Shown here: positions 20,797-23,215 of the stretch, piece after piece
Position numbering within the stretch: position 1 is the first letter of the stretch
How the letters are laid out: every line of letters starts with the position of its first letter
NCBI GenBank assembly: GCA_002434245.1
Contig: DJJR01000058.1
Span: 1-23,391 of the forward strand
Length of the DNA stretch: 23,391 nt
Reading direction: 5' to 3'
Source: Pelosinus fermentans
GTDB taxonomy: Bacteria > Bacillota > Negativicutes > DSM-13327
Program-made: the position numbers and the translations under genes
Notes under the pieces: model-generated
Seen by the model: the letters and a program-made list of their open reading frames with translations, nothing else
Database searches by the model: none
What the model was told of the DNA's origin: nothing

Positions 20797-21093
20797 TTAA
20801 CCAGCCTGATAACCGTCTACAACAACTTTTAATTCTCCCGTATGTGGGTTGAAGATCAATCCATGAATCGGAACATCTTTAGGAATCAGTGGATTGCTAC
20901 GAATTTTAGTTACTACTTTTTCCACATTCTCTATAGGATTATTAAAATGATCTAACCAGTCTTCTAATTCTTTTTCGATCATTTTAATCGCATCTAGAGA
21001 AATTCCTCGTTCAATCATCTTTTCGATAAGGCTCTGAGAGGTAGTGTTAGATACGCTTTCATTCAGCTTCTTTAATTGATAGGAGAAGTTCAT
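20797..21093 (-). pseudogene. Beta-carbonic anhydrase, C-terminal fragment
   Basis: 98 residues. The second half (GISLDAIKMIEKELEDWLDHF, then VEKVVTKIRSNPLIPKDVPI and HGLIFNPHTGELKVVVDGY) matches the C-terminal part of Firmicute beta-carbonic anhydrases, which are about 185 residues long. The N-terminal half with the zinc ligands (CxDxR and HxxC) is missing, so it cannot hydrate CO2. The first residues overlap the last 35 bases of the chemoreceptor gene in another frame. The chemoreceptor's end and this fragment were probably joined by a deletion, but a short expressed derivative cannot be ruled out. No clear ribosome site precedes the ATG at 21093. Confidence 0.7.
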
Positions 21094-23215
21094 TTACTAG
21101 ATCCGCACCAATCTCATCTTTGTATTTATTAAATACTGGTTTAATCACTTCTTGTAGTTTAAGTAATTCTGTGGAATTGATTTTTCCTATACACATGCCT
21201 TTATTCTCTAATTCCGGTAATAATTCCAGCATTTGTCTTTGATTTACTTGAGCAGTATAAAGAGCTCCTTCTTTTGCCGCTTCCTCGATAATCATTTGAT
21301 CTTCCTTAGGTACTAAATTCCATAATTTTTTTGAATACATCAGCACAAAGGGAGTAAATACGTGATGACTTAGTGTTAAGAATTTTTGAACCTCATAAAA
21401 ACTACTGCTATAAATAGTAGTAATAGGATTTTCTTGTCCATCAACTCTTTTGCTTTCTAATGCATCATATATCTGACCAAAGGGGAGAGGAATTGTTTCT
21501 GCACCTAAGGCTCTAAAAGTATCCATATGTAGGGGATTTTGCATCGTTCTAATTTTTAGGCCTTTAAAATCTTCTAAACGGGTAATTGCATGTTGAGAAT
21601 TTGTCATATCCCGAAAGCCGTTTTCGGCAAATGTCAAACCATGAAATTCATACTGATCTAGCAAATCAAGCATCTTTTGTCCAAATGATCCATGAAGTAC
21701 TTTTTCAGCTATATGCTCGTTTTTAAACAGGAAGGGAAAATCAAAGATCATAAAACGTTTATCAAAGGCAGCTAGTGCAGGAGATGAAGGAAATGTCATT
21801 TCAAGAGTTCCTTCTTGCAGCTTTCTCATGAGTTGAAGATCATCACCAAGCTGGGCACTATGGAATATTTTTAGCTCATAGCGTCCCTGGGTACGCTCGG
21901 CTAGGAGTTGGGCAAATCTTTTCATTCCGGCATAGGCTGGAGATTTATCTGTCACCCCAAAGGCAATACGTAACGTAATTGTATCTGAAAATTTAAAACG
22001 AAAAATTGCCTGTTCTAAATTTGCAGCTAATTGGGATAGGGTATGTGTGCCACTGGCAATTTCTGCAACTGATGTGGTTATCTGTTGACTAGTGGCCGCT
22101 GTAGTTTGAGTAGCTGCCGCAGATTGGTTAGCGATTTCAGCCACACCATATATGCTAGACTTTAAATCAATAGCTGCTTCTACCTGCTGATTCGCAAGGA
22201 GCGCAACTTCTTGGGCTTTACTAGTGGATTTCTCAATGTTTATGGTAATATCTCCAAAACTTACATTTGCTTTGGTAATCGTGTTTACGCCTATCATCAT
22301 ACTTTCCTTCGTAATTTCGAAAGCTTCTACGACCTGACGAGTATCGGTCAGCATACTCTCAATGATTTTATTTATTTGATCAGCTGCTTGGCGTGACTGC
22401 TCGGCTAATTTACGAACTTCGTCTGCAACGACAGCAAAACCTCTGCCATGTTCTCCTGCTCTTGCCGCCTCAATTGCTGCATTGAGTGCAAGAAGATTTG
22501 TCTGAGCAGCAATCGTATTTATAAAATCTATAATTTCCCGAACTTTCTCCGATTTATCTTTAAGATCCATACCAAGATGCAGATTATTTTGAGCCCTTGC
22601 AGCAATTTCATTAATAACAGATGTAGATTGTTCTATTGCCTCTTGTCCATTTTGAGCTGAAAGAGTAATTTGTTGTGCGCTTTGCAGTAAACGCTGCATT
22701 TCCTCGGATGTATTTTTCGCTATTTCATTGACTTGGTCGGCTTTACTTACAGCGTTTTGTACCATAGCACCTGTTTCTTGGGCACCTGCGGCAAGCTCAG
22801 CTACAGTTTTTGAGATGACTCCAATAGCCCGGCTGGCTTCGTTAGAAGCGGCTGCAATCTCTACACTTTTGCACGACAAGCCTCCTGCCTCATGGTTCAC
22901 CAGACTTAAGAGTTCACGCAGATTTTTAAGATTTGCATTTATAGCTCTTGCGATCTTACCTAAGTCATTATCTATATTATCGTCAATTGCAACTGTCAAA
23001 TCTCCCCCCTGGATGTGAGAAATCTGTTCAGAGACACTTTTTAGTGTAATGACAATACGATTCATTAAAACTAGACAGGAAGAAGAACAAATAAAGATAA
23101 TAGATAGCATAAATACATTATATAAATTAAAATTGGCCCCAAACATACGAATTAACAAAATGAGAGTTAACGAAGATATTCCTAGCAAAGATAATAGCAG
23201 TAGCTTCTTTTGCAT
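21059..23215 (-). CDS. Methyl-accepting chemotaxis protein fused to a DctP-type TRAP solute-binding domain
   Basis: 718 residues. Two membrane segments lie close together at the N-terminus (about 4-23 and 31-52), with only a few residues outside. A HAMP-like region follows (52-105), then the MCP signalling coiled coil (about 115-410) with the hairpin tip [20 protein letters not shown] (235-254) and [16 protein letters not shown]. From 413 to about 710 it is a DctP-family TRAP solute receptor: [27 protein letters not shown], the carboxylate-binding Arg in LKIRTMQ (R556), [20 protein letters not shown] and [20 protein letters not shown]. No signal peptide or membrane segment separates the two parts, so the binding domain should be cytoplasmic. 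AAGGAGG lies 6 bases before the ATG. No TRAP permease genes (DctQ/DctM) are adjacent. It probably senses an intracellular organic acid and signals to CheA. Confidence 0.92.

Follow-up and report, generated by a model that had tools for sequence, protein, structure and literature searches.

The closest described systems to the protein considered here, a fusion of a methyl-accepting chemotaxis protein (MCP) with a DctP (TRAP-type) solute-binding domain, each share a part of its design. The fusion is encoded in a 23,391-nt stretch of Pelosinus fermentans DNA (assembly GCA_002434245.1, contig DJJR01000058.1, positions 1 to 23,391 of the forward strand), analyzed at its full length and called the window below. 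MCPs with a periplasmic ligand-binding domain, such as dCache or 4HB, have the same arms and signalling tip, and one plain MCP near the fusions (L026) is a dCache_1-HAMP-MCP; in the fusion the periplasmic domain is all but gone and the input would have moved to the C-terminus. The effector domains of LacI and LysR are cytoplasmic regulators of the periplasmic-binding-protein fold that sense an internal metabolite and have DNA binding as output; the fusion would likewise use such a fold for an internal metabolite, but the LacI and LysR domains belong to other families of solute-binding proteins (SBPs) and differ in that output. TRAP SBPs, represented by 4P47 and CxaP/DctP_Am (7BBR), share the fold, the sequence and the carboxylate-binding Arg/Arg/Asn, whereas in the fusion the domain is predicted to be cytoplasmic and is joined to an MCP, no signal peptide or lipobox precedes it, and no permease partner was found at 15 fusion loci and the window. 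In the TlpD/McpA receptors, as the accessible part of PMC12871147 describes them, an intracellular sensor module also stands at the end of the MCP C-terminal arm; there it is CZB, a small Zn-binding helical bundle, whereas the fusion carries a two-lobed domain of 300 residues, predicted to bind a carboxylate, and usually two membrane helices. Chemoreceptors stimulated by a separate periplasmic SBP likewise put the SBP fold at the service of chemotactic sensing, but in the accessible part of PMC9602780 the SBP and the receptor are separate and meet outside the membrane. No description of an MCP-DctP fusion was found in the literature searched, most subscription journals and domain-architecture databases lying outside its scope, and an earlier sequence-only reading of the stretch likewise did not take the design for a described class.

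We think it likely that this protein is a membrane-anchored chemoreceptor with a near-zero periplasmic part, which uses a cytoplasmic, C-terminal TRAP binding domain to read an organic acid just after its import, most probably a sugar acid of the gluconate kind. The gene is a single intact open reading frame (ORF) of 718 aa with an ATG start (21059 to 23215, on the reverse strand like all its features given below), and a ribosome-binding-like motif, AAGGAGG, lies upstream of the ATG (23222 to 23228). In Pfam, MCPsignal matched residues 217 to 360 with 130.3 bits (cut-off 34.6) and DctP residues 421 to 699 with 288.1 bits (cut-off 23.4), while the NCBIfam DctP model scored 252.6 against a cut-off of 175.05. 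The presence of both domains in one ORF confirmed the proposal that a DctP domain follows the MCP signalling tip. DctP is the sole Pfam domain at the C-terminus, where no CZB Zn-binding domain was found. Between residues 381 and 450 there are two start-type codons (421 GTG and 431 ATG), both without a Shine-Dalgarno-like motif.

Read from the N-terminus, the protein begins with membrane helix 1 (residues 2–26, 23138 to 23212; model helix and hydropathy) and membrane helix 2 (about residues 31–53, 23057 to 23125; by hydropathy, the model helix running on to 69), followed by a HAMP-like region below the Pfam cut-off (54–101, 22913 to 23056). Model and alignment place the MCP hairpin next, with an N arm (102–252) and a C arm (254–404; together 22004 to 22912), and Pfam and alignment locate the signalling tip within it (225–281, 22373 to 22543). 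The tip is that of ordinary MCPs and is strongly conserved, with many invariant positions in an alignment of 41 fusions. A linker of 8 residues (405–412, 21980 to 22003; model and alignment) leads to the DctP domain (413–718, 21062 to 21979; Pfam, NCBIfam, Foldseek and model). The AlphaFold model, built from 41 aligned sequences (mean pLDDT 80.9, pTM 0.59), shows helices at 2–26, 31–69, 84–252 and 254–404, a hairpin turn at 253 and the DctP fold from 413. In Foldseek, the DctP domain superimposed on 4p47 with a TM-score of 0.91 by target length and on the sugar-acid binder 7bbr/7bco with 0.84; identity to 4p47 was 39%, and a sequence alignment of the two gave an E value of 3.1e-72. The periplasmic part consists of about 4 residues between the model helices and, by hydropathy, of up to about 25 in relatives. 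Judging from the arm lengths, the C arm would end (404) level with the end of HAMP, at approximately residue 102 on the N arm, which would put the DctP domain close to the membrane on its cytoplasmic side.

The MCP tip works with CheA in the cytoplasm. As hydropathy revealed no membrane-like 19-mer in the window protein beyond the tip, the DctP domain is expected to be cytoplasmic as well. Hydropathy and the AlphaFold model bore out the expectation that both membrane segments precede residue ~53, and neither disclosed a third one near 400–415. No export signal (signal peptide or lipobox) was found before the DctP domain, which begins 8 residues past the MCP helix. Across 60 fusion rows, some of them loci duplicating database proteins, a membrane-like 19-mer after the tip appeared once, in P0033 (279–297), inside the MCP helix just past the tip. 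The scan fuses neighbouring hydrophobic windows, and many rows therefore show one N-terminal segment; the motif position of P0004 is a misparse. The window protein, with its two membrane segments, is not a membrane-free chemoreceptor, but in P0042 and P0043 hydrophobic segments are entirely absent, with both MCPsignal and DctP well over cut-off. By reading, P0043 keeps the start of its membrane-helix-bearing relative P0041 without the helices. In the tree of DctP domains, P0042 is sister to P0037 and P0043 to P0041; in the tree of MCP arms, built without P0041, the partner of P0042 is again P0037 and that of P0043 is P0039. The two stand apart in both trees, and the membrane helices have thus been lost twice, independently. 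By their sequences, the DctP domains of P0042 and P0043 can only be cytoplasmic. That DctP proteins are normally extracytoplasmic speaks for a domain outside the cell, reached by an inverted topology or an unseen membrane segment near 400–415; we regard this as highly improbable, and rejected the inverted topology and the third segment, given the hydropathy, the relatives without any membrane helix, a model helix that continues to 404 and then gives way to DctP, and a tip that must meet CheA in the cytoplasm. The claim that the domain faces the cytoplasm is thus favoured by the sequences.

The architecture, whose lack in related genomes would have counted against the earlier reading, recurs in Pelosinus, Sporomusa, Clostridium ljungdahlii and Burkholderiaceae-like bacteria. 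Four full-length MCP-DctP paralogues occur in the window genome (the window copy, C15, C20 and C42), and at least 45 proteins with both MCPsignal and DctP were present among the best 120 of 196 matches in the protein collection, a search that limited candidate length and so under-sampled free SBPs. Sources named among those listed were Pelosinus, Sporomusa, C. ljungdahlii and one Acidovorax metagenome-assembled genome (MAG). By reading, 5 of the 17 loci returned contain the fusion (Pelosinus propionicus, a Pelosinus MAG, a Bacillota MAG, Sporomusa acidovorans and C. ljungdahlii), and matches spanning the junction were seen in at least 8 of the 300 genomes in the class, counting the own genome. 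The C. ljungdahlii family yielded such matches in 2 of 146 genomes, C. ljungdahlii being one, and at E 1e-90 no genome but the own one had any among 398 of the phylum. The class survey scored the best three candidates per genome and the phylum survey the best two, and their counts are lower bounds. At the level of the family, 6 of 10 genomes matched at E 1e-60, the match of G007 being a free DctP. Because the genome is a draft of 82 contigs, the window being one of them, an assembly error or a missed stop fusing two genes was considered. We give this artefact a negligible chance and rejected it in view of the four paralogues, the relatives in other assemblies, complete ones among them, and the constant junction.

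A second kind of fusion, typified by P0104, accounts for 6 of the best 120 among 7990 matches of P0104, itself counted; an Acidovorax MAG and a Burkholderiaceae MAG are named as sources for two. A search for this betaproteobacterial (beta) form, run without a positive control, matched 0 of 74 genomes. One beta fusion, P0122, combines a periplasmic 4HB_MCP_1 domain with a C-terminal DctP and is possibly a receptor that reads outside and inside at once. Five of the fusions from the protein collection (P0011, P0015, P0019, P0037 and P0039) bear the name 'DctP family TRAP transporter solute-binding subunit', so that public annotation hides the receptor class.

The pocket of 4P47, as given in the accessible part of PMC11668362, comprises Arg152, Arg173, Asn213, an aromatic residue at 196 and an acidic one at 76. 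An ungapped alignment matched these to R535 (21611 to 21613), R556 (21548 to 21550, the carboxylate salt bridge), N596 (21428 to 21430), F579 and D459, respectively. The substrate-contacting R556, noted in the earlier reading, and the GQENP of the DGQENP motif given there are indeed present in the window protein. R535, R556 and N596 were invariant in all 41 aligned fusions, and residue 579 was aromatic in 40 of them. Mean conservation of the four pocket sites reached 0.98, a value equalled by 13 of 10,000 random four-site sets of the domain. The alignment omits the near-duplicates P0001, P0016, P0028, P0030 and P0031, the partial P0002 and P0077, the six beta fusions and fusions of other loci. 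For five pairs, three of which are drawn from one set of three sequences, the ratio of nonsynonymous to synonymous substitution (dN/dS) in the DctP part was 0.131, 0.084, 0.074, 0.112 and 0.085; a sixth pair (L001/L039) was saturated. By these ratios, the DctP part is under purifying selection. Relative to the window protein, length changes affected the arms in 0 of 40 relatives, the linker in 1 (by one residue) and the DctP domain in 22. A constant linker would also fit a DctP domain that is a structural or docking module, for example for an importer or partner protein, and that senses no small molecule, ligand binding being our inference; with three carboxylate-contacting residues invariant and a pocket conserved to a degree that few random sets attain, we find this quite unlikely and favour a domain that binds an organic acid.

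A tree of 62 DctP domains united the Negativicutes-type fusions, that of C. ljungdahlii included, in one clade (99/96) beside L018, a free DctP of 60% identity. L018, a Sporomusaceae SBP with a start that reads as lipoprotein-like, adjoins DctQ and DctM. The beta fusions formed a separate clade (98/96) nested among free betaproteobacterial SBPs. For the DctP domain of P0104, 119 of the best 120 relatives were SBPs of ~335–339 aa with 62–69% identity, the named ones betaproteobacterial, and the remaining one (P0239) was a 219-aa piece with 96% identity. In the MCP-arm tree, the two kinds of fusion were divided by a branch of length 3.56 with 100/100 support, where the tool warns of long branches. 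A single origin of all MCP-DctP fusions was rejected on the basis of these two trees, whose separate clades indicate that the fusion arose at least twice. In the DctP tree, P0021 was shortened to 193 residues by the motif rule, P0119 and P0124 are partial (206 and 210), and 5 of 15 candidate loci for free DctP passed the ORF filter. RFKL is the terminal sequence of plain MCPs of the class (L026, for example), and the fusions continue through the same end, with DctP starting a few residues later. At odds with a simple history are five plain MCPs (L026, L027, L028, L037 and L038) that the MCP-arm tree places amid the fusions, which suggests, as far as sequence goes, an exchange of sensor modules. 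Two of the five were checked: one is a dCache-HAMP-MCP, and L028 has HAMP and MCP but no sensor domain in Pfam.

No TRAP permease was found as a partner at the fusion loci. With queries from L050 and L013, tblastn at E 0.001 returned no DctQ or DctM match in the window and 15 fusion loci, while L050 was recovered as a positive control. Ten genomes of the family were surveyed for DctP and DctM. G004, a sister genome that is 100% complete on two contigs, had one DctP match, the fusion, and so had G009; the window genome (G000, 83.5% complete) had four, all fusions. These three fusion genomes contained only weak DctM matches, the best scoring 42.0 bits in G000 and G004 and 46.5 bits in G009 (Pfam cut-off 23.8). 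One weak match of the window genome falls on GntP in the C42 cluster, and those that pass the Pfam cut-off are probably, by their sequences, members of other ion-transporter families. The best DctM scored 337–382 bits in G003, G005, G006, G007 and G008, five genomes of the same genus, all with a free DctP (G005 also with a fusion), 230 bits in G001, and 329 bits in G002, which is without DctP.

Sugar-acid genes accompany the fusions in five types of neighbourhood, with a GntP or MFS importer, kinase, dehydratase or aldolase. In C. ljungdahlii and, by reading, G894, one strand carries 2HADH, 6PGDH, GntP, FGGY kinase, 2HADH, KDPG aldolase and the fusion; the C. ljungdahlii GntP, 6PGDH and KDPG aldolase score above their model cut-offs, and the best model for the FGGY kinase is gluconokinase, below cut-off. 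G026 has the order 2-hydroxyacid dehydrogenase, class II aldolase, FGGY kinase, GntP, fusion and RpiR regulator, with GntP 42 bp from the first possible fusion start and 96 bp from the one that P0022 uses; C42 and G001 have the G026 genes in a different order. Like its orthologues in G004 and G005, C20 combines two 2-hydroxyacid dehydrogenases, HAD, a gluconokinase-like kinase, carbonic anhydrase and the fusion, and C20 has GntP and an RpiR-like regulator farther upstream. At C15, an MFS transporter near the D-galactonate transporter model, an IlvD/Edd-type dehydratase and a DapA-type protein accompany the fusion. The G062 locus (L046) holds galactarate/altronate dehydratase-type parts, a nickel-pincer isomerase, an MFS transporter and a DapA-like protein. 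As a control, we took 16 regions around some of the 43 other MCP matches in the window genome, using query proteins from other genomes. Sugar-acid genes lay within about 6 kb of 3 of the 4 fusions versus 1 of the 16 regions (Fisher p 0.013 with the window copy as a miss, 0.004 without it), the flanks reaching about 2 kb on one side of C15 and 176 bp at the window copy. The likeliest ligand is a gluconate-like sugar acid rather than a dicarboxylate, not necessarily for every copy. Most neighbourhoods do not favour a dicarboxylate as the prime candidate, and the dicarboxylate named in the earlier reading gives way to a sugar acid, from which some copies may differ.

Several observations weigh against the proposed explanation and its sugar-acid reading, and the five plain MCPs placed amid the fusions are among them. 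The window copy has no sugar-acid neighbour, its contig ending 176 bp upstream of the gene, and three other loci are without sugar-acid genes: L047 adjoins homocitrate-synthase-like, aconitase-family and isocitrate/isopropylmalate dehydrogenase genes, L048 a 3-hydroxyacyl-CoA dehydrogenase gene, and in L049 no sugar-acid gene was recognised by reading. Branched-chain amino-acid genes (for LeuA and the small subunit of acetolactate synthase) follow C20, and at C15 the dehydratase scores above the threshold of ilvD, a biosynthetic model (666 vs 618), so that other acids are possible. Some neighbours fall below family cut-offs, namely the C15 MFS (390.6 vs 395), the DapA-type protein (190 vs 206) and the kinases under gluconokinase models. 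One of the 16 control regions, L092 (G000:C17:10500-23500), also has sugar-acid-type genes; its ordinary MCP, near 2-hydroxyacid dehydrogenase- and DapA-like genes, may serve organic-acid taxis. Within the protein itself, the acidic position 459 is Asp in 31, Glu in 1 and Gly in 9 of the 41 fusions, and HAMP at 57–101 stays below threshold in Pfam (18 vs 25 bits). HAMP is precomputed for many relatives, and the HAMP-like region is shorter in 7 of 40. The Gly-459 fusions, such as P0010–P0019, L039, L042 and L043, read as an 'LGTG' subclade, for which the substitution suggests a different ligand.

The same cytoplasmic sensor could thus serve another internal organic acid in the window copy, for example a di- or tricarboxylate, a keto acid, a 2-hydroxyacid or a branched-chain intermediate. 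DctP pockets accept many carboxylates, at least in the accessible portion of the source, and the leucine- and citrate-type neighbours of L047 and C20, the ilvD-level score at C15 and the lack of an informative neighbour at the window copy all fit. The nearest solved relatives, though, include the sugar-acid binder 7bbr, and the five neighbourhood types, with the three C. ljungdahlii genes above cut-off, point the other way; we see such an acid as a minority prospect, improbable yet well ahead of the other alternatives, and retain a sugar acid as the preferred ligand.

The sequence-only reading had seen in the protein a receptor that samples an internal organic-acid pool, which is favoured here by the predicted cytoplasmic placement, the kept carboxylate pocket and purifying selection, as well as by the absence of a nearby TRAP permease and the presence of neighbouring importers and cytosolic catabolic enzymes. 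In the mechanism we propose, an exported DctP protein would have lost its export signal and been fused to an MCP exactly where the C-terminal arm ends. The organic acid would enter, and its internal level rise, through a transporter of GntP or MFS type whose gene may be co-transcribed with the fusion, and the cytoplasmic DctP domain would close on the acid with its carboxylate held by R535, R556 and N596. Via the short linker, whose length is constant, closure could then act on the C arm where it ends close to the HAMP output, and CheA control at the tip would change, so that the cell might steer by the internal level of the substrate being imported. The presence of CheW-domain genes fits a chemoreceptor. 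Control of some other CheA-type output in place of motility could be imagined from nine CheW-domain matches in the window genome, in frames that include two large ones of 704 and 877 aa (CheA itself was not searched for), but the tip is like that of ordinary MCPs and nothing seen indicates a dedicated pathway, which makes such an output very unlikely and leaves taxis as the expected one.

Elsewhere in the window, an ORF of 98 aa (20797 to 21093, reverse strand) overlaps the 3' end of the fusion and has no Pfam match. This ORF is similar to the C-terminal half of a carbonic anhydrase-family protein encoded ahead of the C20 fusion (30 of 81 residues identical) and may, by that resemblance, be a remnant of a shared ancestral neighbourhood. 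A 136-nt direct repeat at 15318 to 18202, with copies 86% identical and 2749 bp apart, gives two ORFs a shared tail; between the copies lie an IS200-like Y1 transposase (15756 to 16514) and a gene for a PALP-fold enzyme. The ORF at 18066 to 18593 matches nothing but positions 1–20 of PIG-L, and that below threshold. A phosphotransferase system cluster at 1063 to 7712 encodes class II aldolase-like and xylose-isomerase-like proteins, EIIC-GAT, EIIA and a LevR-like sigma-54 activator with PRD and EIIA domains, and adjoins a LysR regulator on the other strand.

Taken as a class, we lean towards regarding these proteins as chemoreceptors of an undescribed type, in which a cytoplasmic TRAP-type Venus-flytrap on the MCP C-terminal arm reads newly imported sugar acid, and which evolved at least twice, can work without a membrane segment and persists in a genome seemingly without a TRAP transporter. 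TRAP solute-binding domains are known as extracytoplasmic, and here one would be a cytoplasmic sensor. The fusion also offers a test of whether a large flytrap domain can drive MCP control from the end of the C arm. If the reading is true, these bacteria would steer by what was actually imported and not by outside levels.

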